This document shows, piece after piece, positions 13,263 to 64,000 of a stretch of 64,000 nt of DNA. How positions within the stretch are numbered: the first letter of the stretch is position 1; each line of letters opens with the position of its first letter. The notes below the pieces were generated by a model, which had not been told where the DNA came from, ran no database searches, and saw nothing but the letters and a program-made list of their open reading frames with translations. Source of the DNA: Halichondria panicea (taxonomy: Eukaryota; Porifera; Demospongiae; Suberitida; Halichondriidae); contig NC_087380.1 in NCBI RefSeq assembly GCF_963675165.1, positions 946,303 to 1,010,302 of the forward strand, written 5' to 3'. Position numbers and translations under genes: made by a program.

Positions 13263-15645
13263 ATGGCTCTATATCTCTGCTGTCTGCTGGGAAGTGTTTC
13301 TCTTGTGTATAGGCAGCCATTGTGTGAGTTGATATGCAGTGCTTTACTGTATTAAATACTGCAAACTTAATTAACTAGTTTATAGGTTTGCTGCTGTTTG
13401 CTGATCCTGTGTTACTGTTGTAGTAGATGAAACTAGTACAGTAATGTATAGATTTGGTATCAGAGCATCAATTATTGCATACAACATCACCAACTGAGCC
13501 CTCTGACACTGACCACACTGGAGAGATCATCTCGTTCTCTGATGTAGGATCAGGAGTTGGTACTAATCCACGAGCCTGGTATTGCTACACCAATCCTAGG
13601 GGTGCAGTATGGCGGGATTCTGGTGGGAGTGAATTGCCCATAGTTTGCGACAGGACTGCAGTTGGGGATGAACTGTTCATCAGTGGTGTCGATCCTGATG
13701 CCGTTGTTCTGCATCGTGGTCCCACACACTTCAGTCCTGATGGAGAATACTGCTGTGTGAGGGTTGATGGTGACTCTGCACCAAGTAAATGTGTCACCTT
13801 CAGTGAGTGCTGTCTATATTGTCTATATGTCCAATACTAACACACACCCCCCACAGCTCCCTGCCCCACACTGAGTCCACTGTCTAATATGACCCAACAA
13901 CCAACATGGCCAACTACACCTGTAACACTGGGTACACCACCAGTGGAGCTACTCAGATAACTTGTATGAGTGATGGTACTAGCTGGTACCTGGTCTCCAT
14001 CACCATCAGTCATTTGTACAAGTAAGACCAGAGCTATAGTAAGTATATATAGTTAGTGTGCATGTGTTTATATTTCCCAATACAGTCGTCACCTGCCCTG
14101 TCCTCACCCCCCCCTACCAATGGAAACGTGGCCTCCCTTATATAGCCTCAACTACCAAGGAATTGCTACATACAGCTGTGATACTGGCTACGTCCTCACT
14201 GGTACTGCATGCTGCTAGACAATGTCTTGCTACTGCTCAGTGGTCAGGAGAGGCACCAACTTGCCCACGTGAGTTAGCAATGGTGGGTTGGAAGTAATGG
14301 TGACAAGTATCTCTCCACAGCTGTTGACTGTGGACCTCTGACTATTGCCAATGGAGCAGTGCATGGACACATCCACTGGAACCACCTTCATGATGACTGC
14401 TACCTACACCTGTAACACTGGATACAACATTGTTGGTAGTGAGAGCAGAACTTGTGGAGCAAGTGGAACAAGTGGAGCAACTACACTAAGTGATGGAGTT
14501 TGGAGTCCAGCTTCACCAGTTTGTGAAAGTATGTGTTATACCATGCAATGTGCTGTTGTGGGCTCCCATCATTTCCTACTTACTTGTCTGTTATGTTACA
14601 GTTGTCAACTGTGGTTCTCTGAGTTACCCCTCCAATGGAGCAGTGGACACATCCGCTGGAACCACTTACCTCCAAAGAGCTACCTACACCTGTAACCCTG
14701 GATACACTCTGACTGGTGGAGGTATGACCAGAACATGTCAAGCTACTGGACTGTGGAGCTCTAGTGAACCTGCCTGTGAATGTGAGTGTGACCTACACAG
14801 CTTCAATACTACTCATTGCTCCCCTGCAGTCATTGTCCTGTCCATTGGAGGCACTGTCTACACTAACAACACAGCTCTGTCCTTCTCCCTCATTGGAGAG
14901 GGCTCCTCTGCCCTCACCTGTCACACTGAGCTATCCACCTGCTGCAGGGAACAAGACAACCCCAATGGAGGGGCTCTCGGAGGTTGGAGAGGACCAGATG
15001 GGAACAGTATTCCTGAAGCAAGGAATACTTGTTCTTCAGAAGGATTTTATGTCACCAGAGGCATCAGCACTATCAGCCTGAATCGTCATGGCACTGAAAC
15101 TAATGCAGGAGGTGTCTACTGCTGCACTATTCCCAGAGCTGGTGGTGTCACTCAATCATTCTGTGTGGACATGCAGTGTGAGTTGATATTGCTTTGACTG
15201 TGCAAACTTTGGTTACTATACAATGTGAGAGTGTTTTGAATTCCTTTCAGATCCTATACCAGCAACTGAGCCAGCAAGTACATGTACTGATGGACCTACA
15301 GTTGCACTGGGAGTGTTGCTAGCAGGCTCTGTTGTTGGGAATATTGTGTTCATAACTTTACTCACTATAAAGACAAAGAAACGTACACAAGCAAGGTGAG
15401 CGTGTAGGAATCATTTGACAACTCTATACAGAAGTGAGCTCAGTCATCATGAGATCTACAGGAAAAAACAACAACCAGTTTACGAAGCACCAGACCAGGT
15501 CACAGTGGCCTTTTATGAAGATATAAGCAAGCTGGGTGTGGGTAGCCCCCCCACAGCTATTGAGCTGAGTGAGTGTCCAGCGTACGCACCCACTGAGTCA
15601 GGGGGTGGGCAGAGGAGAGAGGAAGATTGTATCTATGACAATTAA
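13263..15645 (+). pseudogene. REC1: class A Ig/CCP receptor, degraded
   Basis: Exon remnants: signal peptide 13,263-13,323; Ig1 about 13,481-13,802; CCP1 13,857-14,019; CCP2 14,086-14,270; CCP3 14,321-14,528; CCP4 14,602-14,781; Ig2 14,830-15,177; transmembrane 15,251-15,395; tail 15,432-15,645. The Ig1 acceptor AG has been lost in a small deletion. CCP1 has two deletions (13 and 2 bases) with a stop between them, CCP2 has an extra C in a run of eight, and CCP3 has a four-base CATG insertion. From CCP4 onward it is intact: TVALGVLLAGSVVGNIVFIT membrane span and a tail with EIYRKK, VYEAP, FYEDIS, AYAPT and a final IYDN. A transcript from an internal promoter, or one skipping exons, could still make a CCP4-Ig2 protein, but I score it as a pseudogene. 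Confidence 0.75.
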
Positions 15646-15830
15646 CACTCGTTATTACCCATTTTTATATCTTTGTATTACTAGTAAGTATGTATATGTG
15701 CCCTTTCGTTTGTTTTACAAAGACTGACATTAAAATTAATTTGTTTACGTGTCTTTTGTTTTGCTCAAAGACTACATTGTTGAAAATTTGTATTTACTGT
15801 AATTAATTGCATTCACAATGATTGAGTGGG

Positions 15831-15842
15831 CGTAGCTCCTCT
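15831..15842 (+). promoter_or_regulatory. Shared upstream box, REC2
   Basis: ATTGAGTGGGCGTAGCTCCT about 60 bases before the ATG. The second, GGGGGCGT half of the box is missing here, so expression may differ. Confidence 0.5.
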
Positions 15843-15893
15843 GCATGTAATGCATGTAATCATGCATAACTTCTAGTGAAGTGAACAGAGAGA

Positions 15894-18226
15894 ATGGCTA
15901 CTGTAACTCTATTCCTCTGCTGTCTGCTGGGAAGTATTTCTCTTGTGTATGGACAAACTTTGTGTGAGTTGATATACATGTAATACTGCAAACTAGTTTA
16001 GCTCTAAATCTAGTATAAAGTAGTAAAATATATTTGGTATCAGAGCATCAATTATTACATTAATGGCATACAGTTCGACTGGCAGCACCCAATGAGCCCG
16101 ATGGTACTGACCACACTGGAGAGATCATCTCATTCTCTGATGTTGGATATGGAACTGTTGACTTGCCACAAGCGTTGTATTGCTACACCGACAAACCTAG
16201 TGGTGTGAAGTGGCTGTTCCCTAATGGTGGTGATGTGCCCTTTGTTATGGGTGGGGGTAGGGATGCAGTTGGGGACGAAATGTTCATTAGTGGTGTTCCT
16301 AGTTCAATCGCCACTGTTTTGCAATGTGGTCCCACACACTTCAGTCCTGATGGAGAACACTGCTGTGTGAGGAATGACTTTACACATAGGATATGTGTCA
16401 CCTTCAGTGAGTGCTGACTATAATTATTGTCTATGTCCAATACTAACCCCCACCCCCCACAGCTCCCTGCCCCACACTGAGTCCACTGTCTAATGGAATG
16501 ATCTCATACAATGCAGACACCAACATGGCCACCTACACCTGTAACACTGGGTACACCATCAATGGAGCTACTCCGATAACTTGTATGAGTGATGGTACTA
16601 GTGCTGGTACCTGGTCTGCAACACCACCCACTTGTACAAGTAAGACTAGAACTAGTAAGTAGTTAGTGTGTGTTTATTTTCCCCAACACAGTCGTCACCT
16701 GCCCTGTCCTAACCTCCCCTACCAATGGAGCCTTGTCCACCACTAGTCGGGACTACCTCACTGTTATTACATACAGCTGTGATACCGGCTACGTCCTCAC
16801 TGGTAATAGTGATAGTGCTGTTAGACAATGTTTTGTTACTGGTGTATGGTCAGGAGTGGCACCAACTTGTCCACGTGAGTTAGCAATGGTGGGTTGGAAA
16901 TAATTGTGCATTATCAAGCATCTCCCCACAGCTATTGACTGTGGTTCCCTGGACGCCCCCTCCAATGGAGCAGTGAACACATCCTCTGGAACCACCTTCA
17001 TGATGACTGCTACCTACACCTGTAACACTGGATACCTTATTTTTGGTAGTGAGAGCAGAACTTGTGTAGCAAGTGGAACAAGTGCAGTTTGGAGTACAAC
17101 AGCACCAGTTTGTGAACGTATGTTATGATATGTTGTTGCCTCCCATTATTTCCTACAGTCTTATTACGTTATCAGTGAGCGTTGGTTAATTATGTTCCTC
17201 TGTTACAGTTATCAACTGTGGTTCCCTGGACGCCCCCTCCAATGGAGCGGTGGACACATCTTCTGGAATTACTTACCTCCGAAGAGCTAACTATACCTGT
17301 AACCCTGGATACACTCTGACTGGTGGAGAAGGGACTAGAACATGTCAAGCTAATGGAATGTGGAGCTCTAGTCAACCTGCCTGTGAATGTGAGTGTGACC
17401 TACACAGCTTCAATACTACTCATTGCTCCCCTGCAGTCATTGTCCTGTCCATTAGAGGCACTGTCTACACTAACAACACAGCTCTGTCGTTCTCCCTCAT
17501 TGGAGAGGGCTCTTCTGCCCTCACCTGTCACACTGAGCTATCCACTTGCTGCAGGGAACAAGACAAACTCAATGGAGGGGCTCTCGGAGGGTGGAGAGGA
17601 CCAGATGGGGTCAGTGTACCTTCAGAGGCTGCTATTGGAACTACCGCTGAGGGATTCTACGTTACCAGAGGCATCAGCACTATCAGCCTGAATCGCCGTT
17701 GCAGTGAAACAAATGCAGGAGGTGTCTACTGCTGCACTATTCCCAGAGCTAGTGGTATCACTCAAACATTGTGTGTGAACGTGCAGGGTGAGTTGATATA
17801 AAATAATTGTGTTTATGTTTACTTTGACCGTGCAAACATTGAGAGTGGTTTATAATTAATCCTTTCAGTTCTTCCATCAGCAAGTACATGCACTGATGCA
17901 CCTGCAGTTGCACTGGGAGTGTTGCTAGCTTTATCTTTTGTTGGGAATATTGTGTTCATAGCTTTACTGATACTCATAGTTGGAAGAAAACTTATACCAG
18001 AAAGGTGAGTATATATGAATTATTTGCATTCGTTTGAGAATACCTCTACAGAAGTTATCATGAGACCTACAGGAAAAAACAACAGCCAGTTGTTTACAAA
18101 GCACCCAACCAGGTGGCCTGTTATGAAGATGTGAGCAAGCTGGGTGTGAGTGAGTGTCCAGCGTACGCACCCACTGAGTCAGGGGGTGGGCAGAGGAGAG
18201 AGGAAGATCGTATCTATGACAATTAA
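15894..18226 (+). CDS. REC2: class A Ig/CCP receptor, intact, short tail
   Basis: Nine exons (15,894-15,963; 16,074-16,406; 16,463-16,639; 16,692-16,874; 16,932-17,117; 17,209-17,388; 17,437-17,787; 17,869-18,004; 18,052-18,226) join into 596 residues with no break. Order: signal peptide (MATVTLFLCCLLGSISLVYG), Ig-like 1 (about 24-134; LYCYT, then THFSPDGEHCCVR), CCP1-4 (about 135-376; four Cys and a Trp each), Ig-like 2 (about 377-493; STCC, GWRGPDG, GGVYCC), transmembrane exon (VALGVLLALSFVGNIVFIAL) and tail (539-596). All introns are phase 1 except the last (phase 2). The tail lacks the GGPPTAIEL stretch of its relatives but keeps VYKAP, CYEDV, AYAPT and a C-terminal IYDN; YDN fits a Grb2-type pYxN site. 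Likely a surface recognition receptor; ligand unknown. Closest copies are REC7 and REC10. Confidence 0.85.
17389..17436 (+). other. 48-base intron 6 that is also open (exitron-like)
   Basis: The segment GTGAGTGTGACCTACACAGC...CCCCTGCAG has a donor and acceptor, is 48 bases, has no stop and keeps frame. Retained, it adds 16 residues including CECDLHSFNTTHC with extra Cys and an N-glycosylation site. The same segment is present before Ig2 in every receptor. Its length is 47 in REC3, 46 in REC11 and 52 in REC14, which argues that it is normally spliced out. Confidence 0.7.
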
Positions 18227-18321
18227 CACTATAATTACCATGTTTGTTTACGTGTCCTTTGTTTTGCTCAAAAACTGAATACTTTGTTGAAATTTTGATA
18301 TTAAATTTTAATCATCAAGAA

Positions 18322-18371
18322 TGATTGAGTGGGTGTCAGCTCCTCTATTAGAGTGTGAATGGGGGCGTTTC
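18322..18371 (+). promoter_or_regulatory. Shared upstream box, REC3
   Basis: ATTGAGTGGGTGTCAGCTCC, then GAGTGTGAATGGGGGCGTTT, ending about 70 bases before the ATG. Same version as before REC8 and REC11, which supports these three being one lineage. Confidence 0.55.
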
Positions 18372-18442
18372 TTTTGATACTTATATACAGTCGTGCATGT
18401 ATATTGTATCTTCTAGTTAGTGTACTGGACTGCATAGAGAGA

Positions 18443-20642
18443 ATGGCTACTGTAACTCTATTTCTTTGCTGTCTGCTGGGAAGTGTTTGTCTTGTGAATG
18501 GACAGACTTTGTGTGAGTTGACATAATGCAGTGCAGTGGCTTACCTTCCCCTAGCTAGCTATAGTCTATATACCATTGTTTCTTGCTCAATATATTAATG
18601 CACTGCATGAGGGTAGTAGCTAAATACAGTGTACATGCAGGTTCTATGCTTGAGAATATCATAGACATGCATCTTATAATAATATTATGAGCTGTTGTCA
18701 ATTTGTGCTAATATGCATGCATGTTTGACATATCCAGCAGCACCCAATGAACATAGCTATGTCCAATACACTAACCCTCACCCCCCACAGCTCCCTGTCC
18801 CACACTGAGTCCCCTGTCTAATGGAATGATCGCAACCACCAACATGGCCACCTACACCTGTAACACTGGGTACACCATCAGTGGAACCATAGATAGAAGA
18901 GCAACTACTGCAATAACTTGTATAAGTGATGGTACCTGGTCTCCAACACCTCCCACTTGTACAAGTAAGACCTGAATTTATATAGGTACACATGCATGGT
19001 GCAAGTGCAAAGTCCTCGCTCAAAGTCCATTTGCATGGCTAATGACGTCATTTATTTGTACGACTATCCTTTAATCTAATGATCGGCACTTAAGAAAGCT
19101 AGGTTGTTGTATTCAAAGATTGGTAGTTAGTGTGTGTTTATTTTCCCCAACACAGTCGTCACCTGCCCTGTCCTAACCTCCCCTACCAATGGAGGTGTGT
19201 CCACCACCACTAGTCGGAACTACCTCACCATTGCTGCATACAGCTGTGACCCTGGCTACTTCCTCACTGGTAGTGCTACTAGACAATGTGAAGCTACTGG
19301 TCAGTGGTCAGGAGTGGCACCAACTTGTTCACGTGAGTTAGCAATGGTGGGTTGGAAGTAATGGTGATCAAGCATCTCCCCACAGCTGTTGACTGTGGTT
19401 CCCTGACTGACCCCTCCAATGGAGCAGTGGACACATCCTCTGGAACCACCTTCATGATGACTGCTACCTACACCTGTGTCACTGGATACAACATTGTTGG
19501 TAGTGAGATCAGAACTTGTGGAGGAAGTATAACAAGTGGACCAACTGGAGTTTGGAGTCCAGCTGCACCAGTTTGTGAAAGTATGTTATACCAATGTGTT
19601 GTGGCCTCACGTGATTTCCTATGATCTTATTACTGAACACTTTGTCAGTGAGCGTTGGTTAAATATGTTACTTGTCTGTTACAGTTGTCAACTGTGATTC
19701 CCTGGACGACCCCTCCAATGGAACAGTGGGCACATCCTCTGGAACCACCTTTAGGGACACTGCTACCTACACCTGTAACCCTGGATACACTCTGACTGGA
19801 GATATGACCAGAACTTGTCAAGCTAATGGAAATTGGAGCTCTAGTGAACCTGCCTGTGAATGTGAGTGTGGCCTACACAGCTTCAATACTACTCATTGCT
19901 CCCTGCAGTCATTGTCCTGTCCATTGGAGGCACTGTCTACACTAACAACACAGCTCTGTCCTTCTCCCTCATTGGAGAGGGCTCCTCTGCCCTCACCTGT
20001 CACACTGAGCTATCCACCTGCTGCAGAGGAGTGGACAATAACGGCAATGCTCTCGGAGGGTGGAGAGGACCAGATGGGGACATTCCTGAAACAATAGGTG
20101 ATGGATTCTACGTCACTAGAAATGTCAGCACTATTAGCCTGAATCGCCATGGCACTGAAACGTTGGCTGGTGTCTACTGCTGCACTATCCCCAGAGCTGG
20201 TGGTATCACTCAAATATTCTGTGCAGAGGTGCAAGGTACAACATTCGTGTGTGTGTGTGTGTGTTGTGTATCTTATATAGCTGATTCATCTTCTATTCTA
20301 TAGCTCCTACTTCTTCACCAGGGCCTGGTGGTGATGTTGGGGCTATAGTCGGTGGTGTCATTGTTGCTGTGATAGACATTGTGGGGTTAGTAGTGGGTAT
20401 CATTGTGGCAGTCATTATAAGGACAAAGAAACTTACACAAGCAAGGTGAATGTTCATGTGGAATGATAATAGTAAAGTTTATATTACTATACAGAAGTCA
20501 ACTCAGACAGTATCAAAACAAACAAGAGCCAGTTTATGAAGATGTGAGCAAGTTGGGTGTGGGTGGCCCCCCCACAGCTATTGAGCTGAGTGAGTGTCCA
20601 GCATACGCACCCACTGTGTCAGGGGGTGGGCAGAGGAGATAA
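18443..20642 (+). CDS. REC3: class B CCP/Ig receptor, intact
   Basis: Eight exons (18,443-18,512; 18,791-18,964; 19,156-19,332; 19,386-19,580; 19,685-19,861; 19,909-20,235; 20,304-20,445; 20,495-20,642) give 469 residues. Ig1 is absent: where its exon should lie (about 18,735-18,755) only the phrase CAGCACCCAATGA remains. Order: signal peptide, CCP1 (24-81), CCP2 (82-140), CCP3 (141-205), CCP4 (206-264), Ig2 (265-373), membrane exon, tail (421-469). The membrane exon is of a second type (GAIVGGVIVAVIDIVGLVVG) and has an Asp within the helix where REC8 and REC11 have Ala. The tail keeps VYEDVSKL and AYAPT but stops at GGGQRR, so the C-terminal IYDN is lost. Intron 6 is 47 bases, so its retention would break the frame. 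Confidence 0.85.
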
Positions 20643-20950
20643 GAAGATCATAATGATAATACAAACCCTTTATTTATTGATTTGTGCTGTATTTTAGTAG
20701 CGTTATACAATTGTTTTCATTGCACAATCATTATAGTACGTATAATTACAGCAACTCAGATTGTATTCACTTCATCATTAGCCATAGCTTGTGCATCATT
20801 GTTTGGATGGTGTCTTTCCACGTTTACAGTTGATCATTGTATAAGAGAATGTAAAGTTGTTTGTTCAACACGAAGACGTATAAACAACAAATCACAAAAC
20901 GTGTGTTTACGTAGTTCTGTGTGTGCATGAACAAAGAGACGGCTAGTGAG

Positions 20951-21060
20951 TCAGTGTGACAGGTCGTTGGCATCAAACTTCTCCTGATCATAAAGCTCCG
21001 CCTTTATCATCCGTCCTTCAAACCATCGACCATTGAGAGATTTAGCAGCTGCTACAGCCT
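20951..21060 (-). pseudogene. PUF60-type last exon, orphan copy 1
   Basis: Minus-strand frame after an acceptor (CCCCTACAG) reads [20 protein letters not shown] then [16 protein letters not shown] and stop at 20,953-20,951. This matches the C-terminal RRM (UHM) of PUF60/half-pint splicing factor (NGRWFAGR...EVYDQERFDNSDLSA). No other PUF60 exon is in the window. Further copies lie at 40,989, 50,834 and 61,198, always behind a receptor, so it travelled with the duplicated block. Confidence 0.75.
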
Positions 21061-21230
21061 CTGTAGGGGCAGAGGAGGACAGTATACAGGTCGAACAATT
21101 AATTATCAACTTTTATAGTGTGGGGGAATTAGGGTAGGATAGCGGGACTAGAGTGTGGGGGTGGGGGTGGAGGTTGATTGGCTAAGATAAAAATAATTAT
21201 AATAATCAACATTATTCATAGCTTACATTC

Positions 21231-21275
21231 AATGATTGAGTGGGTGTAGCTCCCTCTAGTGGAGTGTGGGGGCGG
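21231..21275 (+). promoter_or_regulatory. Shared upstream box at the orphan signal exon
   Basis: GATTGAGTGGGTGTAGCTCC then GAGTGTGGGGGCGG, about 20 bases before the orphan signal exon. It is an apparently complete promoter box without an intact gene directly behind it. Confidence 0.5.
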
Positions 21276-21292
21276 TTATAAACACAGAGAGA

Positions 21293-21364
21293 ATGGCTAC
21301 TGTAACCTATTTCTCTGCTGTCTGCTGGGAAGTGTTCTCTTATGTATGGACAGTTGGCTCTGAG
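21293..21364 (+). pseudogene. Orphan receptor signal-peptide exon
   Basis: ATGGCTACTGTAACCTATTT matches exon 1 of the receptors but lacks one base after GTAAC, so the leader reads MATVTYFSAV instead of MATVTLFLCC. A donor (GTGAGTTG) follows. The next receptor exon is 2 kb away and has its own leader. The same broken exon recurs at 51,168. Confidence 0.75.
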
Positions 21365-21475
21365 TGAGTTGATTTAATATGCAGCAAGTATTGCAAACTT
21401 ATTTATTTAGCTAGACCATTATAATTATAGTTTAAAAGGGAATGGCTGCCCACTCTACTTCGATATTCCCGATAC

Positions 21476-22141
21476 CTGTCACTATCCTCATCACACACAT
21501 ACGCTTGTCCTCGTTAAAACCAAGTGTTCCCATGGCATCCTACGTAGATGCAAAATAACAGGTGAAAATGGCTAATTATTACCGATTAATCAATAGCTTA
21601 ATTACCTGTGTACTCTTGAACTTCGAAAATTTCTGCATGAATTCACAGATTACTAGAAATGCATATAATATTATAAGAATATACAAGTATAGTATAAACA
21701 TTATTTTGATTACTGCATGTACATAGCGAGTGATTTTCGTGAGTAAAAATTTCGTTTGACTTCATTGCCTGTACTGCATTGCATGTGTGTTCCGGTAAAC
21801 CACGCCTACGTTTTCATGGGGGAAAATTTGCCCACGAAAAGAACAAATATTTTATTCCACAAAAATTACCCGCTATACGGTACTATAGAATGGCCTTAAA
21901 AAGCATTCTCAATCTCTCCAGCTATAGCTGAATTAGCAGGCAAGTTATACTCACAGTGTCTGCTCCGGTAATCTTGCCCTGGTTCCCAAAATGGCCCTGA
22001 AGAGTACATATACAAACAAGTTGTTCATTACAGACTGACTCACAAAACGAGACGAGTTATTGTTTCTGATTGTCCTTGCATTTCCGAATACTTCCAAAAC
22101 GGGTTGGCCTGGATCACCTGCTCCTCGAGGTTACCACGCGC
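21476..22141 (-). pseudogene. Myosin II heavy-chain motor exons, fragment (copy 1)
   Basis: Four minus-strand pieces in gene order. 22,141-22,044 reads RGNLEEQVIQAN, then GNARTIRNNNSSRF before a GTGAG donor. 21,996-21,955 reads GHFGNQGKITGADT. About 21,635-21,607 has a damaged short exon, and 21,540-21,476 reads DAMGTLGFNEDKRMCVMRIV. These fit the myosin motor stretch LE.QI..ANP.LEAFGNAKT.RN.NSSRFGK and the later DAM..LGF region. The exon for YLLEKSRV is missing, and one base is lost after CAGGCCAACC. Introns are kept, so this is a genomic fragment and not a retrocopy. Confidence 0.65.
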
Positions 22142-22480
22142 CTGTGCATGACATGACATAACATATTTAAATAGTGACAATAACAATGGACACTTGTAGA
22201 AAGCTCTACCCAGCACACAATGAACAGTGCTATAATTATTTCTTAGTTTGGGTGTACAAATTCTTTATAATTATGTCTAAAACTACACAAAATTATAATT
22301 TTGTGGTATCAATTAACATGAGCTGCTCTCAGTGTCATAGAAAGTGAGGGATGACATTCCAATTTAATTGAGCCGTAATAATATTACATAATTATTATTA
22401 ATAAATATATTATGTCATGTCATGCACAGGTGCGTGGTAACCTTGAGGAACAGGTGATCCAGGCCAACCCCGTTCCGTTG
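22080..22480. repeat. Inverted repeat built on a myosin exon
   Basis: The phrase GGTTGGCCTGGATCACCTGC at 22,100 and its inverse GCAGGTGATCCAGGCC-like stretch at 22,449 face each other about 250 bases apart; the arms also share CATGACATGACATA / TATGTCATGTCATG. The plus-strand arm therefore carries a second, inverted partial copy of the same myosin exon (GTGCGTGGTAACCTTGAGGA). Confidence 0.65.
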
Positions 22481-22481
22481 C

Positions 22482-23155
22482 CTATATAATTATGGCATAT
22501 ACCCGTACTACCACATGCACAAGACCACTATTGATTGCGGAATTCTTGATATTTTCTTAATGCTTGTCAAATTTAACAATTTTGTTGCGGATATCTTGTT
22601 AATATGTAAATCCTCCTCCTCCAGTATCACACACATGCACCCACATGTTATACATGTTATACATGCATTATGTTCATACAACCACAAACAAAATTCCGTA
22701 CATTGAGCTCGATTATGAGTAATTATAGTTGCTATGTCTAGATTGTTTTAAGCATAATTATACCTAACAGAGGTATATACATTGAGTTGGAGACAATGGC
22801 CAAAGCCATGCAGTAACATCACTAACAGACTATCTCAAGGTGCTGGGTTCAGCCCCTCCCTTCTCACTGACGAGTTCATCAATTGTTTTGACGGCTCCTC
22901 TAGTCATGTGACCTACAGAGCTGTGCACACTGGAACAGAAACTGTATCTGCTGTGGAATTCATTAATTGCACTCATAGTACAAATACCTGAGTTTGTTTG
23001 ACTGCAATGAAGGCAGGTCATGTGCACACTTCCTTGACATGACTTTTATTATTACCATTGGATGCAGTGTGCTTTCAGTATCATAAGTAGACTATCAAGT
23101 GCTACAAGCTATAATTATTAGCTACATTAGGTATATGATATATATATAGCTATAA
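22482..23155. other. Conserved segment of unknown content upstream of REC4
   Basis: Contains ACTATTGATTGCGGAATTCT and a stretch reading LTDEFINCFDGSSSHVTYRA then VHTGTETVSAVEF (about 22,862-22,990). The same stretch recurs at about 52,716-52,850 and, diverged, at 57,789-57,880. I recognise no family; it could be an exon of a captured gene or regulatory DNA of this receptor subgroup. Confidence 0.4.
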
Positions 23156-23160
23156 GGAGA

Positions 23161-38174: not shown

Positions 38175-40687
<2,513 letters not shown>

Positions 40688-51155: not shown

Positions 51156-51167
51156 TAAACACAGAGA

Positions 51168-51241
51168 GAATGGCTACTGTAACCTATTTCTCTGCTGTCT
51201 GCTGGGAAGTGTTTCTCTTATGTATGGACAGTTGGCTCTGA
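51168..51241 (+). pseudogene. Orphan receptor leader exon, copy 2
   Basis: ATGGCTACTGTAACCTATTT with the same missing base as at 21,293, then a donor. The next coding exon of a receptor is far downstream and has its own leader. Confidence 0.75.
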
Positions 51242-51352
51242 GTGAGTTGATTTAATATGCAGCAAGTATTGCAAACTTATTTATTTAGCTAGACCATTAT
51301 AATTATAGTTTAAAAGGGAATGGCTGCCCACTCTACTTCGATATTCCCGATA

Positions 51353-52021
51353 CCTGTCACTATCCTCATCACACACATACGCTTGTCCTCGTTAAAACCA
51401 AGTGTTCCCATGGCATCCTACGTAGATGCAAAATAACAGGTGAAAATGGCTAATTATTACCGATTAATCAATAGCTTAATTACCTGTGTACTCTTGAACT
51501 TCGAAAATTTCTGCATGAATTCACAGATTACTAGAAATGCATATATAATTATAAGAATATACAAGTATAGTATAAACATTATTTTGATTACTGCATGTAC
51601 ATAGCGAGTGATTTTCGTGAGTAAAAATTTCGTTTGACTTCATTGCCTGCACTGCATTGCATGTGTGTTCCGGTAAACCACGCCTACGTTTTCATGGGGG
51701 AAAATTTGCCCACGAAAAGAACAAATATTTTATTCCACAAAAATTACCCGCTATACGGTACTATAGAATGGCCTTAAAAAGCATTCTCAATCTCTCCAGC
51801 TATAGCTGAATTAGCAGGCAAGTTATACTCACAGTGTCTGCTCCGGTAATCTTGCCCTGGTTCCCAAAATGGCCCTGAAGAGTACATATACAAACAAGTT
51901 GTTCATTACAGACTGACTCACAAAACGAGACGAGTTATTGTTTCTGATTGTCCTTGCATTTCCGAATACTTCCAAAACGGGTTGGCCTGGATCACCTGCT
52001 CCTCAAGATTACCACGCGCCT
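51353..52021 (-). pseudogene. Myosin II motor exons, fragment (copy 2)
   Basis: Same four pieces as at 21,476-22,141, in the same order and orientation, with the same base missing in the RGNLEEQVIQAN exon. An inverted partial copy of that exon again lies on the plus strand at about 52,300-52,350. Confidence 0.65.
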
Positions 52022-54523
52022 GTGCATGACATTACATAACATATTTAAATAGTGACAATAACAATGGACACTTGTAGAAAGCTCTACCCAGCACACAATG
52101 AACAGTGCTATAATTATTTCTTAGTTTGGGTGTACAAATTCTTTATAATTATGTCTAAAACTACACAAAATTATAATTTTGCGGTATCAATTAACATGAG
52201 CTGCTCTCAGTGTCATAGAAAGTGGGGGATGACATTCCAATTTAATTGAGCTATAATAATATTACATATTATATAATATGTTATGTCATGTCATGCATAG
52301 GCGCGTGGTAACCTTGAGGAGCAGGTGATCCAGGCCAACCCCGTTTGTTGCCTAAAATTATGGCATATATACCCGTACTACCACATGCACAAGACCACTA
52401 TTGATTGCGGAATTCTTGATAATTATTTTCTTAATGCTTGTCAAATTAACAATTTTGTTGCGGATATCTTGTTAATATGTAATTCATCCTCATGCACCCA
52501 CATGTTATACATGTTATACATGCATTATGTTCATACAACCACAACAAAATTCCGTACATTGAGCTCGATTATGAGTAATTAGTTGCTATGTCTAGATTGT
52601 TTTAAGTATAATTATACTTAACAGACGTATATACATTGAGTTGGAGACAATGGCCAAAGCCGGTGACATTACTAACAGACTATCTCAAGGTGCTGGGTTC
52701 AGCCCCTCACTTAATTCTCACTGACGAGTTCATCAATTGTTTTGACGGCTCCTCTAGTCATGTGACCTACAGAGCTGTGCACACTGGAACAGAAACTGTA
52801 TCTGCTGTGGAATTCATTAATTGCACTCATAGTACAAATACCTGAGTTTGTTTGACTGCAATGAAGGCAGGTCATGTGCACACTTCCTTGACATGACTTT
52901 TGTTATTACCATTGGATGCAGTGTGCTTTCAGTATCATAAGTAGACTATCAAGTGCTACAAGCTATAATTATTAGCTACATTAGGTATATGATATATATA
53001 TAGCTATAAGGAGAATGTTTCCTTCAAGGTTATTTCTCTGTTGTCTGCTGGGAAGTGCTCCCCTAGTGTATGGACAGCCAGCTTTAGGTGAGTTGAAATT
53101 ATGCAGTGCAGCTAGCTAAATAAACTAAGTATATAGCTATATGGAGAATGTTCCCTTCAAGGTTATTTCTGTAACTTGTGCTAGATCTAATTGCTGGTAA
53201 ATATATAGTACTATAGATGAAACAAGTAGATCTAGGCTTGGTATCAGAGCATCAATTATGGCATACAGTTCGACTGGCAGCATCCAATGAGCCCGATGGC
53301 ACTGACCACACTGGAGAAATCATCTCGTTCTCTGATGTTGGATCAGGAGTTGGTACTGATCCACCAGCCTGGTATTGCTACACCTACCCTGGTGGTGCAG
53401 TGTGGCAGGGTCCTGGTGGGAGTGAATTGCCCATAGTTCAGGGCAGGGCTGCAGTTAGGGATGAACTGTTCATCAGTGGTACTTTTAATCCTGATGCCGT
53501 TGTTCTGCATCGTGGTCCCACACACTTCAGTCCTGATGGAGAACACTGCTGTGTGAGGATTGCTGATGGCCCTGCACAGAGGCTGTGTGTCACCTTTAGT
53601 GAGTGCTGACTATATTATTGTCTATGTCCAATACTAACCCCCACCCCCCACAGCTCCCTGTCCCACACTGATTCCTCTGTCTAATGGAAGGATCTCATAT
53701 GATGCAACCACCAACATGGCCACCTACACCTGCATGTGACACTGGGTACACCACCAGTGGAGCTACTCCGATAACCTGTATGAGTGATGGTACTAGTGCT
53801 GGTACCTGGTCTCCAACACCTCCCACTTGTACAAGTAAGACCATCATATAAAACTACTATAAAACGACGAAATTTGGCGAGCGTTTTAATTTGGCAAATT
53901 TACATTAGTTTGCTAGTGGATGCAACGTTATATTGCCGTAATATAGTAGCCACGCCTCAGACGTCAATTTAAAAAACACCAATTTGATTCAAATGGCTCA
54001 TTCGCCAAATATAATACTTGCTAAATTTTCAACTGGTACCCAGACCTTTATAGAGAACTATAGTTAGTCTGTGTTTATTTTTCCCAACACAGTCGTCACC
54101 TGCCCTGTCCTAACCCCCCCTACCAATGGAGCCTTGTTCATCCCTAGTCTCAACTACCTCACCATTGCTGCATACAGCTGTGATACTGGCTACGTCCTCA
54201 CTGGTAATGCTGCTAGACAATGTCAAGCTACTGGTGAATGGTCAGGAGTGGCACCAACTTGTTCACGTGAGTTAGCAATGGTGGGTTGGAAGTAATGGTG
54301 ATCAAGCATTTCCCACAGCTGTTGACTGTGGTTCCCTGGACGCCCCCTCCAATGGAGCAGTGGACACATCCTCTGGAACCACCTTCATGATGACTGCTAC
54401 CTACACCTGTAACACTGGATACAACATTGTTGGTAGTGAGAGCAGAACTTGTGGAGCAAGTATAACAAGTGGACCAACTGGAGTTTGGAGTCCAGCTGCA
54501 CCAGTTTGTGAACGTATGTTATA

Positions 54524-55037
54524 CCATAGATAGAGTAGAAGAGGGATTGGAAACGGAAGTGATTCACGTGATGTTTTACAATGAAGTCTACGTAGTGGCT
54601 CTGGTATCTCCTCATAACTCCAGCAAAAGCCCGGGAAACTTATTGTGTCCAAAGCATACATCTCAGAGCTACCCCCATTACTAATCACATGCCCCCTGAT
54701 AGTAGGTATCAATTGGAAACAAAGAAAATATAATCTCGATTGTCGTGAAGTAGCTAGAGGTACACAGAGCGCTTTTTCATGCTTGTGTTCCTATAGTACC
54801 TTTGATTAGCTAAAGCTTTGTAACTAAATAGTGTCCTGTGTCCCAAATGGCCTCAAGTATTTGATGTTTAGCAGCAGAACTGCTCGTGGACTTCTTACAG
54901 AGAGCAAAACAATTCTCATGAATTATTCATGTTTAACCCTCGTGTTAAAAAGTAAGCCTCAATTAAAACCGCGGAGATACACGGATGGTACTTCGAGGGT
55001 ACTACCGTTTCCAATCCCTCTTCTACTCTATCTATGG
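54524..55037. mobile_element. Complete inverted-repeat element, REC12 intron 5
   Basis: 514 bases, with ends CCATAGATAGAGTAGAAGAG (33-base inverted repeat) and its inverse, flanked by TTATA at 54,519-54,523 and 55,038-55,042. No transposase frame. The copy in REC4 has lost its right end. Confidence 0.8.
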
Positions 55038-55759
55038 TTATACCAATGTCTGTGGCCTCACATGATTTCTTAATACTGAACCTCTCCGGTAAGCATTGGT
55101 TAAATGTGTAGTTATCAACTGTGGTTCCCTGGACGCCCCCTCCAATGGAGCAGTGGACACATCCTCTGGAACCACTTACCTCCAAAGAGCTACCTACACC
55201 TGTAACCCTGGATACACTCTGACTGGTGGAGATATGACCAGAACTTGTCAAGTTAATGGAATGTGGAGCTCTAGTGCCTGTGAATGTGAGTGTGACCTAC
55301 ACAGCTTCAATACTACTCATTGCTCCCCTGCAGTCATTGTCCTGTCCATTGGAGGCACTGTCTTCACTAACAACACAGCTCTGTCCTTCTCCCTCATTGG
55401 AGAGAGCTCTTCTGCCCTCACCTGTCACACTGAGCTATCCACCTGCTGCAGGGAACAAGACAACCTCAATGGAGGGGCTCTAGGAGGGTGGAGAGGACCA
55501 GATGGGAACAGTATTCCTGAAGCAAGTGATACCTGTCCTTCAGAGGGATTCTACATAATCAGAGGCATTAGTACTATTAGCCTGAATCGCTGTAGCAATG
55601 AATCGTTGGTAGGAGGCGTCTACTGCTGCACTATTCCCAAAGCTAGTGGCATTATCCAAACGTTCTGTGTGAACGTGCTGTGTAAGTTGATGATATATAG
55701 GCTGCTGTGTATATACTCTATGTAAGTGTTATGTAGTGTTCTATATTGCTTTCAGTTTC

Positions 55760-55865
55760 TACAACTGAGCCAGCAATAGAACCAGCAACTGAGCCATCCA
55801 CTGAGCCAGCAACTGATAAGCCATCCACTGAGCCATCCACTGAGCCATCCACTGAGCCAGCAAGT
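55760..55865 (+). repeat. 12-bp stalk minisatellite, REC12
   Basis: ACTGAGCCATCC/ACTGAGCCAGCA units in exon 8. Order and number differ from REC4 although the surrounding DNA is nearly identical, so the repeat is changing faster than its flanks. Confidence 0.75.
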
Positions 55866-56348
55866 ACAGACATTGATGGACCTACAGTTGCACTGGGAGT
55901 GTTGCTAACAGGCTCTGTTGTTGGGAATATTGTGTTCATAACTTTACTCACTATAAAGACAAAGAAACATACACAAGCAAGGTGAATTATGTACATGTGT
56001 GATATTAAACAGTAAAGTTTACATTGAAAATATACTTCCACAGAAGTCGACTCAGTCACACTTATTCAAACAAACAAGAGCCAGTTTATGAAGTCCCCAG
56101 CAAGGTGGAAGATGTGAACAAGCTGGGTGTGGGTGGCCCCCCCACAGCTATTGAGCTGAGGGAGTGTCCAGCGTACGGCACCCACTGAGTCAGGGGGTGG
56201 GCAGAGGAAAGAGGAAGATCGTATCTATGACAATTAACACAACTATTATTATGTGCCCTACATGTGCATGTATGTAGGCCTTTGTTCCCAACCCCCCCCG
56301 ATATAATTAATTAAATTCATAGCTACCAATGTTGCGCATGCACAATTA

Positions 56349-56923: not shown

Positions 56924-57195
56924 ATGGCTACTGTAACTCTATTTCTCTGCTGTCTGCTGGAAAGTGTTTCTCTTGTGTATGGGCAACCTTTGAGTGAGTA
57001 CATAACAACTGAGTTGATATGCACTGCACAGTTGCTTAGAGTTGGTGTATAGCTAATGTTTACATGGAGGGTGGTGTTCTGCACTATAATTTCCTGGTAT
57101 TGCTTCACCCAGAAAACTACTAATGTGGAGTGGCAGCTTCCTAATGGGACTGCAGTGGTAGCAAGAGTATAGGGGTTCCAGTTGGGGACGACCAT
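56924..57195 (+). pseudogene. REC13: receptor fragment (leader and part of Ig1)
   Basis: A leader exon at 56,924-56,993 (open, donor GTGAGTAC) is followed at about 57,090-57,195 by a piece of an Ig1 exon of the REC15 type (WYCFTQKTTNVEWQLPNG, with an extra base after GCAAGAGTA). It then breaks off into the ACCATTGACTGTGGGATTC segment otherwise found upstream of REC4 and REC12. No CCP or membrane exon follows. Confidence 0.75.
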
Positions 57196-58094: not shown

Positions 58095-60956
58095 ATGTTC
58101 CCCTCAATGTTATTGCTCTGCTGTCTGCTGGGAAGTGCTTCCCTAGTGTATGGACAGCCGTTGAGTGAGTTGATATAATAAATCTAGTTTAGATTATGCA
58201 GCCTAGCTAAGTTAATACTAATTAACTTGTGCTACTGGCTGGTAAATAGTAGTAGATCTAGGTTTGGTATCAGAGCATCAATTATACATTAATGGCATAC
58301 AGTTCGACTGGCAGCATCCAATGAGCCCCCTGGCACTGACCACACTGGAGAGATCATCTCGTTCTCTGATGTTGGATCAGGAGTTGGTACTGATCCACGA
58401 GCCTGGTATTGCTACACCAACCCTACTGGTGCAGTGTGGCAGGGTCCTGGTGGGAGTACATTGCCCATAGTTCTGGGCAGGGCTGCAGTTAGGAATGAAC
58501 TGTTCATCAGTGGTATTATTAATCCTGATGCCGTTGTTCTGCATCGTGGTCCCACACACTTCAGTCCTGATGGAGAACACTGCTGTGTGAGGATTGCCAC
58601 CAATGAGAGGAGATGTGTCACCTTCAGTGAGTGCTGACTATATTGTCTATGCATGTCCAATACTAACCTCCACCCCCCACAGCTCCCTGCCCCACACTGA
58701 GTCCCCTGTCTAATGGAAGGATCTCATATGATGCAACCACCAACATGGCCACCTACACCTGTGACACTGGGTACACCACCAGTGGAGCTACTCCGATAAC
58801 TTGTATGAGTGATGATACTAGTGCTGGTACCTGGTCTCCATCACCTCCCACTTGTACAAGTAAGACCATTATATATAGAACTACCATACAACAGGGAAAT
58901 TTGGCTAGCATTTTAATTTGGCAAATTTACATTAGTTTATATACTGGTGGATGCAATAATAAATGCATAAGAAGAGAAGAGTGTCGAACTACGAGTAAAG
59001 AGTGCAAGTGAAGAGGATCAACTCGACTATTGTCTCTATTTAGATGATTTTTGTGAAGAGATCGTCTCCTATCAGTGTGCAGTGAGCAGCTCCACTAGCT
59101 CTGAACGTTGAATGCGAACAATTTAGCTAGAATTGTTCGATTACCACACCCCTAAAAACGTAACGGTTAACATTTACTAGGAGATTACTATTAAATTTAC
59201 AATACTTTATCACGTGCTAGTCATGTTACTTTGTGCACAGTGTTTGTGGTGTTTGTGTAGAAGTATCAGTAGTTCGACACTCTTCTCTTTTTATGCACTC
59301 ATGATATAATACTTGCCAAATTTTCAACTGGTACCCGGACCTTTATAGAGAACTATAGTTAGTGTGTGTTTATTTTCTCCAACATAGTCGTCACCTGCCC
59401 TGTCCTAACCTCCCCTACTAATGGAGCCTTGTTCACCCCTAACCTCAACTACCTCACCATTGCTACATACAGCTGTGATACTGGCTACGTCCTCACTGGT
59501 AGTGCTGCTAGAAGATGTCAAGCTGACGGTGTATGGTCAGGAGTGGCACCAACTTGTCCACGTGAGTTAGCAATGGTGGGTTGAAAGTAATGGTGATCAA
59601 GGATCTCCCCACAGCTGTTGACTGTGGACCTCTGGCTATTATCAATGGAGCAGTGGACACATCCTCTGGAACCACCTTCATGATGACTGCTACTTACACC
59701 TGTAACACTGGATACAATATTGTTGGTAGTGAGAGCAGAACTTGTGGACAAACTGGATTTTGGAGTTCAACTGCACCAATTTGTGAAAGTATGTTACCAA
59801 TGTCTGTGGCCTCACATGATTTCTTATTACTAACCTTTGTCAGTGAGTTAGTATGTAAATTGATCTGTTACAGTTGTCAACTGTGGTTCCCTGGACGCCC
59901 CCTCTAATGGAGCAGTGGACACATCCTCTGGAACTACCTTTAATATGACTGCTACCTACACCTGTAACCCTGGATACACTCTGACTGGTGCAGAAGGGAC
60001 CAGAACATGTCAAGCTAATGGAATATGGAGCTCTAGTCAACCTGCCTGTGAATGTGAGTGTGACCTACACAGCTTCAATACTATATACTCATTGCTCCCC
60101 TGCAGTCATTGTCCTGTCCATTGGAGGCACTGTCTACACTAACAACACAGCTCTGTCCTTCTCCCTCATTGGAGAGGGCTCCTCTGCCTTCACCTGTCAC
60201 ACTGAGCTATCCACCTGCTGCAGGGAACAAGACAACCCCAATGGAGGAGGGCTCTAGGAGAGTGGAGAGGACCAGATGGGGTCAGTATACCTTCAGAGGC
60301 TGCTTTTGGAACTATCGTTGAGGGATTCTACATCACCAGAGGCATTAGCACTATCAGCGTGAATCGCCGTTGCAGTGAAACGAATGCAGGAGGTGTCTAC
60401 TGCTGCACTATTCCCAGAGCTGGTGGTTCCACTCAAACATTGTGTGTGAACGTGCAGGGTGAGTTGATATAAAATAATTGTGCAAACATTGAACAATGTG
60501 AGAGTGTTTTTAATTCTTTTCAGTTCCTATACCAGCAACTGAGCCATCTACTGAGCCATCCACTGAGCCATCCACTGAGCCAGCCAGTAAGCCAGCCAGT
60601 ACATGTACTGATGGACCTACAGTTGCACTGGGAGTGTTGCTAACAGGCTCTGTTGTTGGGAATATTGTGTTCATAACTTTACTGATAGTTGGAAGAAAAC
60701 TTATACCAGAAAGGTGAGTATATATGAATTCATTTGACAATACCTCTACAAAATTTATCATGAGACTTACAGGAAAAAACAGCAGCCAGTTTACAAAGCA
60801 CCCGACCAGGTCACAGTGGCCTATTATGAAGATGTGAGCAAGCTGGGTGTGGGTGGCCCCCCCACAACTATTGAGCTGAGTGAGTGTCCGGCGTACGCAT
60901 CCACTGAGTCAGGGGGTGGGAAGAAGAGAGAGGAAGATTGTATCTATGACAATTAA
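58095..60956 (+). pseudogene. REC14: class A receptor, Ig2 frameshift, lost acceptor
   Basis: Exons: 58,095-58,164; 58,303-58,626; 58,683-58,859; 59,388-59,561; 59,615-59,788; 59,874-60,053; 60,106-60,458; 60,524-60,713; tail about 60,752-60,956. Leader (MFPSMLLLCCLLGSASLVYG), Ig1 and CCP1-4 are intact. Intron 6 is 52 bases (TATA added). Ig2 has two extra bases at about 60,247 (GGAGGAGGGCTCTAG), giving a stop. The acceptor of the tail exon is TACAAA instead of TACAGA, so normal splicing is lost although the tail still encodes VYKAP, YYEDVSKL, GGPPTTIEL, AYAST and IYDN. Upstream exons could give a secreted Ig1-CCP1-4 form. Confidence 0.75.
58962..59300. mobile_element. MITE, second copy, REC14 intron 3
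   Basis: Same element as at 24,143 (ATGCATAAGAAGAGAAGAGT ... CTCTTTTTATGCACTC) at the same intron position. Its left end is slightly altered. Confidence 0.8.
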
Positions 60957-61304: not shown

Positions 61305-61440
61305 AAATGAAAATAACAGCCAGTTTACGAAGGTGGCCTTTTATGAAGATGTGAGCAAGCTGGTTGTGGTTGCCCCCCCCCCCCCCCACAGCTATTGAGC
61401 TGAGTGAGTGTCCAGCGGCAGAAGAGAGAGGAAGAGACTG
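61305..61440 (+). pseudogene. Detached receptor tail exon fragment
   Basis: AACAGCCAGTTTACGAAGGT, TTTTATGAAGATGTGAGCAA, a run of about 17 C, then GCTATTGAGCTGAGTGAGTG and AGAGAGAGGAAGAGACTG match receptor exon 9, with deletions. It has no membrane exon before it. The poly-C run replaces the seven C of the functional tails. Confidence 0.75.
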
Positions 61441-61517
61441 TATCTTTACAACTATATTTGATGGAACATGTTTCTTTGTTAACATAGCTGCCGCGCCAAT
61501 GTTGCGCATGCACAATA

Positions 61518-61552: not shown

Positions 61553-61562
61553 ACTACAGTAG

Positions 61563-62014
61563 CAGAGGAGGAATGCCAGTGTCAAAAGGTCACTAATTAA
61601 AACACCACGTGGCCCAATGTTTTACATGTAAAACTGAGTTTACCCTCGCGCCCCTGAGTTTATACACCACCAATAGCTTGATCCTCTTTATAATCACAAC
61701 AGAAATCGGCTGAGCTATCGCGCCCCAGAGGAATCAGCTTGAGAGAGGAGATCCAGGATTTAATTGCAACCTTTGATCTTTTATTGCATTCTTCTAAACC
61801 ACAAGATATGGAAAATAGCCTGCCATGGCTAGAGAACAAATTTTGATATACTAGCTTGCTGCACTGGATAGATCTAGGTATAATAGCTTTCCAAGCAGGC
61901 AAATAAAGAACAGAAGCGCTAAGCTGCTATATGCAGCAAAGGTCAAGAACCCAGAACAAGAATGTTTAATCCTTCATTAAACGTGACCCTATTGACCCTG
62001 GCGTTTCTCCTCTG
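61563..62014. mobile_element. MULE-like element with CAGAGGAGG ends, 452 bp
   Basis: Ends CAGAGGAGGAATGCCAGTGT and inverse (ACCCTGGCGTTTCTCCTCTG), with 9-base duplications CTACAGTAG at 61,554-61,562 and 62,015-62,023. Short frames inside match nothing known. Confidence 0.8.
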
Positions 62015-62326
62015 CTACAGTAGTGCATTACTCGTTCATTAATGAGCCACGCCTTCAGCACTTGAACTCTGCAATATGATTGGGCTGCAAAATTTCTGCA
62101 GCAGGAACAAAACCTTACATTGCAGTGGTGCCCAGCCCCACACAGGCTTGAGTGGCATTCACTTTTTTGACAACGAAATCATCGGATTCTTGAGTGGCAT
62201 TCACTTTTTTGACAACGAAATCATCGGATTCCTTAGATTCTACTTGAGTGGCTTCCATCTTCTAGCAGCTGTACTGAATACACTGGACTGGACAGAGAGA
62301 ATAGAGAATATAGAGAGTCTGAGAGA

Positions 62327-64000
62327 ATGGCTACCGTAACTCTATTTTTTTGCTGTCTGCTGGGAAGTGTTTCTCTTGTGTATGGGCAGGCTCCTTTGAG
62401 TGAGTTGATATGCAGTGCAGTGCACAGTTGCTTATAAGAGTTAGAGTATAATTTATCTCTATTGTATAGCTTTTTCAATTAATGTTTACATGCATGGAGG
62501 GTGGTTTTCTGTACTACAATAATAGACAATATCATATATATAGCTATCTATATAGCTATAGACATCAGGTGTTATATGTTGTATAACATGTACAGCCCAC
62601 CTGGCAGCAGGCAATGAGCCCCTTCCCATTGACCACACTGGAGAGATCATCTCATTCTCTGATATTGGAACAGGAACTAATGAACCATTTCCCTGGTATT
62701 GCTTCACCCAGAACACTACTAATGTGGAGTGGCAGCTTCCTAATGGGACTGCAGTGGTAGCAAGAGTAGGGGTTCCAGTTGGGGACGAACTGATCACTAG
62801 AGCTGTTAATGGAGGCCTTTTTCTGCTTCGTGGTACCACACACTTCAGTCCTGATGGAGAACACTGCTGTGTGAGGATTGGCACTACACAGAGGCTGTGT
62901 GTCACCTTCAGTGAGTGCTGACTATATAATTATTGTTTATGTCCAATACTAACTCCCACCCCCCACAGCTCCCTGCCCCACACTGAGCCCCCTCACTGAC
63001 ACTAATGGAACGATATCATACAATGCAACCAACAACATGGCCACCTACACCTGTGACACTGGGTACACCATCAGTGGAGCTACTCCGATAACTTGTATGA
63101 GTGATGGTACTAGTGCTGGTACCTGGTCTCCACCACCACCTACTTGTACAAGTAACTATATATAGTAGGTAGTTAGTGTGTGTTTATTTTTCCCAACACA
63201 GTCGTCACCTGCCCTGTCCTAACCTCCCCTACCAATGGAGTCTTGTCCACCACTAGTCGGGACTACCTCACCATTGCTGCATACAGCTGTGATACTGGCT
63301 ACATCCTCACTGGTACTGCTGCTAGAACATGTCAAGCTACTGGTGAATGGTCAAGAGTGGCACCATTTTGCTCACGTGAGTTAGACTAAAGGAATGGTGG
63401 GTTGGGAGTAATGCTGACTGAGCATCTCCCTACAGCTGTTGACTGTGGTCCCCCGACTAACCCCTCCAACGGAGCAGTGGACAAATCCACTGGAACGACC
63501 TTTATGATGACTGCTACCTACACCTGTAACACTGGATACAACATTGTTGGCAGTGAGAGCAGAACTTGTGGAGTAAATGGAACAAGTGGAGCAACTACAC
63601 TAACTGATGGAGTTTGGAGTCCAGCTGCACCAACTTGTGAAAGTATGTTATACCAATGTGTTGTGGCCTCACATGATTTCGAACAGCCTTAATACTGAAC
63701 CTCTCCAGTAAGTGTTGGTTAATGTGTTATTTTATAGTTGTCAACTGTGGTTCCCTGGACGCCCCCTCCAATGGAACAGTGGACACATCCTCTGGAACCA
63801 CTTACCTCCGAAGAGCTAACTACACCTGTAACCCTGGATACACTCTGACTGGTGGAGAAGGGACTAGAACATGTCAAGCTAATGGAATGTGGAGCTCTAG
63901 TGACCCTGCCTGTGAATGTGAGTGTGACCTACACAGCTTCAATACTACTCATTGCTCCCCTGCAGTCATTGTCCTGTCCATTGGAGGCACTGTCTACACT
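62327..64000 (+). CDS. REC15: class A Ig/CCP receptor, partial at window edge
   Basis: Exons 62,327-62,399; 62,596-62,910; 62,969-63,151; 63,202-63,375; 63,436-63,642; 63,738-63,917; 63,966 onward, all in frame to the edge within Ig2. Leader MATVTLFFCCLLGSVSLVYG. Ig1 is the most diverged in the array (FPWYCFTQNTTNVEWQLPNG, an N-glycosylation site in the C-C' region, then LRGTTHFSPDGEHCCVR). Intron 6 is the standard 48 bases and open. The tail lies outside the window. Confidence 0.8.

Follow-up and report, generated by a model that had tools for sequence, protein, structure and literature searches.

In their architecture the receptor genes analysed in this work resemble most closely the fester co-receptors (FcoR) encoded at the fuhc locus of Botryllus schlosseri. 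FcoRs are described as type I receptors of 520-610 aa that carry immunoglobulin (Ig), sushi and Ig domains, a transmembrane (TM) segment and a tail with YxxI/L/V motifs, and that make up a large family, clustered and variable in gene content (PMC12065747). The genes in question form a tandem array in a 64,000-nucleotide stretch of the genome of the sponge Halichondria panicea (NC_087380.1, positions 946,303 to 1,010,302 of the forward strand; the whole stretch is called the window below). Sponges are reported to be remarkably specific in distinguishing their own grafts from foreign ones (PMC5450542), and H. panicea has already been used in immune challenge experiments (PMC8242945). The locus offers clustered candidate genes that combine a diversifying head with a conserved tyrosine tail. 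To our knowledge, the polymorphic receptors behind sponge graft discrimination have not been settled, and no account of this locus stood out in the open-licence literature. It is likely that the array is a recognition cluster, the strongest points being its clustering, the contrast between the distal and proximal Ig-like domains and the tyrosine tails; that its products are type I cell-surface recognition receptors of innate immunity or historecognition, a reading which covers responses both to other individuals and to microbes, is considered fairly probable.

The receptor copies were mapped exon by exon with tblastn and then joined at splice sites. The first-pass annotation, made from the sequence alone, had read fifteen same-strand tandem copies from position 13263 to the window end; the arrangement stood, but the count had to be corrected to 14, beyond which the array contains three orphan leader exons and one tail-exon remnant (Table 1). 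The exons proposed as common to the copies were recovered in the order leader, distal Ig-like (Ig1), four complement control protein (CCP) modules, proximal Ig-like (Ig2), stalk/TM and tail, with donor and acceptor sites concordant across the array. Internal introns of the open copies are in phase 1, with the exception of the TM-to-tail intron (phase 2), and the open full-length copies encode approximately 590-670 aa. The CCP modules of spliced copy 9 matched Pfam Sushi (PF00084) in four stretches with 113.1 bits against a curated cut-off of 20.7. The stalk is TEPST-rich, and the TM segment was identified by reading the sequence.

Comparison by eye assigned two NCBI proteins to the array: P0007 (Halichondria panicea) corresponds to copy 1 over CCP3-CCP4-Ig2-TM (59/59 residues of the CCP3 part) and P0010 combines parts of copies 6 and 7. 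Orthology was checked by names only, the two named NCBI proteins being 'SVEP1-like' and 'uncharacterized'. Since a short segment that separates CCP4 from Ig2 is missing from P0007, the apparent single long CCP4+Ig2 reading frame was recognised to harbour a mini-intron of 46-52 nt. The mini-intron is exactly 48 nt long and readable in frame in 11/14 copies (46, 47 and 52 nt in the others), and its mean identity over the 14 copies is 97 % versus averages of 51-89 % for four other short introns. In copy 1 it lies at window 14782-14829, where its retention would add 16 residues including an N-T-T glycosylation sequon.

The locus changes by duplication of blocks of about 15 kb, exon deletion, TM-exon swapping and sequence exchange between copies. 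Self-comparison of the window aligned block A, consisting of a glycosyltransferase-like gene (GT) followed by copies 1-2-3-4, with block B (GT-9-10-11-12) in pieces 84-96 % identical; copied pieces of 3.9-4.7 kb at this identity are beyond chance. A third, rearranged block was found around copies 5-8. The nearest relative mostly differs from exon to exon within a copy, with copies 4 and 12 being mutually nearest in most exons. In Ig2, synonymous differences are 0.03 at the start of the exon and climb to 0.5 in its middle, and this gradient together with the 97 % identity of the mini-intron points to sequence exchange between copies. Copies 3, 8 and 11 are without the distal Ig exon, which was apparently removed by internal deletion, and carry another TM exon (type b); loss of Ig1 can leave the leader-to-CCP1 frame open because both introns are in phase 1. 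An open frame was found in 6/14 copies (2, 3, 4, 5, 9 and 14), the tail of copy 4 being frameshifted and shortened. The intermixing of complete, truncated, class-switched (alternative TM exon) and dead copies was thus borne out, and block duplication and mosaic exons likewise support the description of a cluster in turnover whose Ig/CCP receptors have tyrosine tails.

The label 'Ig-like' given to the terminal domains required a structural argument. No Pfam Ig-family match at E 0.1 was obtained for any of 100 Ig1 or 38 Ig2 members, yet Ig domains were the best matches of the predicted folds of both, so the label holds and both terminal domains are assigned Ig-like folds with moderate confidence. 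The best structural matches were NCAM-type adhesion domains. Domain-library screens miss the Ig domains of this receptor family.

The pairwise ratio of nonsynonymous to synonymous substitutions (dN/dS) was calculated in the array with frame-broken or absent exons left out copy by copy, which for Ig1 keeps 7/14 copies. It was 1.25 for Ig1 (7 copies), 1.04 for CCP2 and 1.00 for CCP3, with 0.49 for both CCP1 and CCP4; the values for Ig2, TM and tail were 0.44, 0.50 and 0.47, and dN exceeded dS in 0/55 Ig2 pairs. The five open copies gave 1.33 for Ig1 (bootstrap 0.96-1.90) and 0.42 for Ig2 (0.28-0.61). In the genome-wide set, comprising 58 of 70 distal-Ig matches, Ig1 reached 1.30 (bootstrap 1.01-1.70), and 22 Ig1 exons of a neighbouring cluster gave 1.64 (1.23-2.28). 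A tree-based count over the same 58 exons returned 1.32 for Ig1, with 13/110 codons leaning towards dN>dS and 11/110 in the opposite direction (uncorrected p<0.05). By this contrast in dN/dS, the distal Ig appears to diversify while the proximal Ig stays more constrained.

The window array belongs to a larger family, of which it forms one sub-cluster. Of 71 Ig1 matches genome-wide, 64 fell on contig C4, which carries the window and makes up 5.9 % of the assembly, and 139 of the best 150 of 295 Ig2 candidates were also located there, between 0.11 and 4.10 Mb. The whole-genome counts are lower bounds for Ig2 (best 150 of 295) and Sushi (best 150 of 4112), and they count match rows, at least four distal-Ig exons and several tail exons being split over two rows. 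The stretch C4:530-710 kb contains 25 Ig1 matches, on the minus strand throughout; when each Ig1 was taken together with everything up to the following Ig1, a grouping that may merge neighbours, 23/25 were followed by CCP modules (1-16) and 7/25 by an Ig2-like domain. Other dense Sushi clusters were seen among the best 150 of 4112 matches at C9:5.62-5.68 Mb, C2:6.45-6.48 Mb and C15:3.86 Mb. Kinase-tailed members of the family were sought in a cluster of tyrosine kinase matches at C4:2.52-2.76 Mb and rejected, as the one 7-kb stretch read (L065) encodes a different ectodomain and no family ectodomain.

The open-frame array tails contain a YxxV core motif in 5/6 cases, in keeping with the YxxI/L/V tails of FcoRs, and YxxP plus a terminal YDN in 3/6. 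The tail exon of copy 14 contains three 120-nt tandem repeats with YE[DN]V in each. Neither the immunoreceptor tyrosine-based inhibition motif (ITIM) nor the activation motif (ITAM, Yxx[LI]-x6-12-Yxx[LI]) was found in the 6 open-frame tails, and a relaxed ITAM with V allowed was found in 0 of 5 tested. In the neighbouring cluster, another TM and tail exon lies downstream of Ig1-CCP genes at the three places read; this tail exon has 51 matches, 47 of them on C4, where they fall in the stretches that also contain Ig1 matches. Twenty stretches were extracted from these and 14 were compared: YE[GE]L-x8-YE[VM]V was present in 14/14 full tails, all of which match the relaxed ITAM with V, while such a pair arose in 2.5 % of shuffled tails. 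The array tail and the ITAM-like tail look homologous when two sequences are aligned by pairwise BLAST (E 1e-7). A third tail type follows TM type b in three genes (L009, L010 and L013, at C4:533, 544 and 574 kb), downstream of which an ordinary-looking Ig domain sequence was noticed by eye.

The genome contains 71 SH2 matches. At C9:5.255-5.259 Mb, an SH2 exon is followed on the same strand by exons encoding ankyrin repeats, a second SH2 and a tyrosine kinase, a layout which we take to be that of Shark-type kinases. Among SH2-containing PDB entries the first SH2 exon matched ZAP-70 best and then SYK; the kinase exon matched EGFR-, ErbB- and ABL-type kinases best. Syk-family kinases are reported to occur in sponges (PMC9601881). 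Two receptor genes on C1 share the tail exon of the array, and SH2 exons were observed approximately 7-8 kb from them, at C1:8613183 and C1:8635968 (near L029 and L030).

Distal diversification, block duplication, mosaic exons and conserved tail motifs are as expected of a recognition locus, and the earlier suggestion of an innate-immune or self/non-self receptor cluster is upheld in part, namely for turnover, distal diversification and tail motifs, and not for a specific role in self/non-self recognition. We infer that the array is expressed and has an immune or allorecognition role. In such receptors the distal Ig-like domain would bind ligand as the variable head, the CCP modules, four in number, would form a rod, and the proximal Ig-like domain with the TM segment would be an anchor, while the tail tyrosines, once phosphorylated, would dock SH2 proteins. 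The ITAM-like tail that the neighbouring members appear to carry (YE[GE]L-x8-YE[VM]V) could be bound by a kinase with tandem SH2 domains, such as the SH2-ankyrin-SH2-kinase encoded in this genome. Because its YxxV tails are without ITAM spacing, the window array, a sub-family, probably has a different output, such as docking, modulation or decoy. It is doubtful, though worth stating, that C4:0.54-1.80 Mb as a whole is a histocompatibility-like complex of about 60 receptors whose hypervariable heads are invisible to Pfam, with at least two output classes, an ITAM-like class read by the SH2-ankyrin-SH2-kinase and a YxxV class to which the window array belongs; if true, ITAM-type paired-receptor recognition would exist in a sponge.

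Several observations weigh against a recognition role. The Ig1 bootstrap is borderline in the array alone (0.96-1.90, five open copies), CCP2 and CCP3 have a dN/dS likewise near 1, and all dN/dS figures are indicative only, recombination being outside the model. A loop pattern resembling complementarity-determining regions was considered for Ig1 and found unsupported: predicted strands and helix gave 1.65 and other positions 1.17, and the classical pattern is not upheld because strand/helix dN/dS is not below that of the other positions. Eight of the 14 copies (1, 6, 7, 8, 10, 11, 12 and 13) are broken, hence part of the array is decaying. YxxV-type motifs appeared in about half of the shuffled array tails, and the strict ITAM consensus was matched by 0/14 neighbouring tails because the last position is V. 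The ITAM-like tail exons appear to join distal-Ig genes, as judged from gene order and apparent splice phase. Their dS is 0.028 and their dN/dS 0.80 (bootstrap 0.31-2.88), and with so low a dS they may have been kept alike by recent homogenisation instead of by constraint.

Within the recognition reading, the binding of bacterial or symbiont surface molecules, with microbes driving diversification, is a possibility that we hold tentatively. In H. panicea, 62 % of the catalogued recognition receptors are described as individual-specifically expressed, and lipopolysaccharide-responsive genes include Sushi- and Ig-domain genes (PMC8242945); a response of Sushi genes is also described in Aplysina aerophoba (PMC6208332). 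Those catalogues are Pfam-based, but both Ig-like domains of the array are invisible to Pfam, and for this reason the catalogues are no evidence of a response of array genes.

Allorecognition proper, in which this chromosome region would be the histocompatibility complex of a sponge and fusion or rejection would depend on whether the distal Ig domains of two individuals match, is regarded as somewhat unlikely. Its favourable points are the diversification of the distal domain, the FcoR-like architecture and genomics (Ig, sushi, Ig, TM, YxxI/L/V tail, gene-content variation; PMC12065747) and the description of Hydractinia Alr clusters as likewise pseudogene-rich (PMC11067881). Strong gene-content variation would also fit the public distal-Ig cores, of which 112 were compared (from 120 listed proteins, out of 169 found): 15/112 are identical to a genome exon, whereas 97/112 are below 95 % and 93/112 below 90 % identity to the 70 genome matches. 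These cores are drawn from clusters formed at 90 % identity, and other species may be their source; on both grounds they were rejected as evidence of allelic diversity. The GT92 gene flanking the array, used as a species control, had one 96 % match and the rest at ≤72 % among 32, and belongs to a multigene family. P0011 reached ≤59 % among full matches to this genome (67 % in one short piece) and P0127 ≤68 %, hence some public proteins come from other sponges or from alleles absent here. The words sushi, CCP, immunoglobulin, Ig-like and receptor are absent from the main text of a graft transcriptome study of Amphimedon, a different sponge. As an observation apart, the CCP4+Ig2 cassettes of P0011-P0014, P0018 and P0020 are 51-54 % identical to the array, which suggests similar arrays in another sponge (of these proteins, P0011 was compared with this genome).

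A cell-adhesion or matrix family, with neutral or relaxed-constraint variation and a function in cell sorting or tissue architecture, is unlikely as an explanation, even though it would agree with the NCAM-type structural matches and with the breakage of 8/14 copies, and CCP modules are common in matrix proteins. Complement-regulator-like receptors reminiscent of CD46 are very improbable: four CCP modules and a TEPST-rich stalk would suit them and a thioester-protein locus seems present (two partial TED_complement matches over cut-off, covering 57 and 50 of 312 positions), but both matches lie at one place, C13:577-580 kb, so that the ligand family looks small, and CD46 is not known to have flanking Ig-like domains or tyrosine tails of this kind.

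The receptor array and its surroundings are listed in Table 1. Beside the array, an open GT92-family glycosyltransferase open reading frame (ORF) occupies window 6257-7813 and has a 96 % relative in a public contig. Long ORFs on the minus strand at 8768-11264 are perhaps exons of one gene, and one of them is ubiquitin-like, below the Pfam cut-off. A tandem repeat of 182 nt lies at 524-1045 (2.9 copies, 93 % matches). In copy 8, the intron that precedes the TM exon contains a perfect TG repeat of 253 bp (about 126 units, 40023-40275). Between copies 6 and 7, at 34249-35221, about 1 kb aligns to its own reverse complement with 80 % identity; this palindrome-like stretch is possibly a mobile-element remnant.

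Table 1. Coordinates of the receptor copies, duplicated blocks and associated features in the window
Feature	Window position	Strand	Description	Basis or length
Block A	11783..26695	+	GT-1-2-3-4	self-comparison
Block B	41427..56243	+	GT-9-10-11-12	self-comparison
GT	11589..12928	+	STELLO-type glycosyltransferase-like gene, heads block A; two ORFs in different frames, PF03385 over cut-off in the C-terminal ORF	
GT partial copy	27140..27859	+	heads middle block	
GT small fragment	31121..31496	+		
GT partial copy	41428..42563	+	two reading frames, heads block B	
Copy 1	13263..15645	+	broken: distal-Ig acceptor lost, CCP exons frameshifted	
Copy 2	15894..18226	+	open: leader-Ig1-CCP1-4-Ig2-TM-tail; tail YKAP, YEDV, YDN	
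Ig1 exon, copy 2	16074..16406	+	example of distal Ig-like exon, diversifying	
Mini-intron, copy 2	17389..17436	+	between CCP4 and Ig2	48 nt
Ig2 exon, copy 2	17437..17787	+	example of membrane-proximal Ig-like exon, constrained	
Copy 3	18443..20642	+	open: lacks the distal Ig exon; TM type b; tail stops short of YDN	
Orphan leader exon	21307..21342	+	twin of the one at 51184	
Copy 4	23161..26689	+	open; tail frameshifted/truncated, frame stop 26562; close twin of copy 12	
Copy 5	28181..30713	+	open, full architecture	
Copy 6	31728..33815	+	dead: several exons frameshifted, other sequence in place of TM and tail	
Copy 7	35598..38013	+	frame breaks at end of distal Ig exon	
Copy 8	38223..40687	+	broken: has lost its start codon; distal Ig absent; TM type b	
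Copy 9	42831..45293	+	open, full architecture, 4 Pfam Sushi stretches	
Copy 10	45529..47998	+	frameshift in distal Ig exon	
Copy 11	48215..50521	+	no distal Ig, TM type b, single stop codon in Ig2	
Orphan leader exon	51184..51252	+		
Copy 12	53015..56243	+	twin of copy 4, CCP1 frameshifted	
Orphan leader exon	56933..57004	+		
Copy 13	58095..60956	+	Ig2 frameshifted; original tail acceptor lost	
Tail-exon remnant	61333..61447	+		
Copy 14	62327..64000	+	open; runs past the window into L027, to ~C4:1011243	

The recognition receptors proposed here can be set beside the described systems as follows. CD46 shares with the array four CCP modules, a Ser/Thr/Pro-rich stalk, a TM segment and a short tail; the array differs from CD46-type regulators in having Ig-like domains at both ends and a tyrosine-rich tail. 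Sponge aggregation factors are built on Calx-beta and related domains. They are a polymorphic sponge family reported earlier to have a link with species-specific adhesion; the Pfam matches of copy 9 are Sushi only, Calx-beta was absent from C4 among the matches listed, and linkage to aggregation-factor-like genes was not seen among them.

Hydractinia Alr proteins, unlike the array, are not known to have CCP modules. The likeness lies in single-pass receptors with Ig-like domains recognised by structure prediction, and in tens of loci, many of them pseudogenes, gathered in few clusters (PMC11067881); the array similarly consists of clustered single-pass Ig-like receptor genes among pseudogenes. 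Polymorphism and graft genetics are known for Alr, whereas the array is known from one assembly. The fester and uncle fester genes of Botryllus also combine Ig and sushi in the ectodomain and lie in an allorecognition locus, but they are described with one sushi, three TM segments and, in that account, no known signalling domains (PMC12065747).

The FcoR layout (V Ig, one sushi, two C2 Ig) differs from the four CCP modules and one proximal Ig of the array, and FcoRs, as described, may carry ITIM or hemITAM, whereas no ITIM or ITAM pattern is seen in the open array tails. The likeness is one of architecture, between a tunicate and a sponge family. The analogies with Alr and with Botryllus CCP genes that the first-pass annotation had drawn are apt, and the FcoR family of Botryllus comes closer still (PMC12065747).

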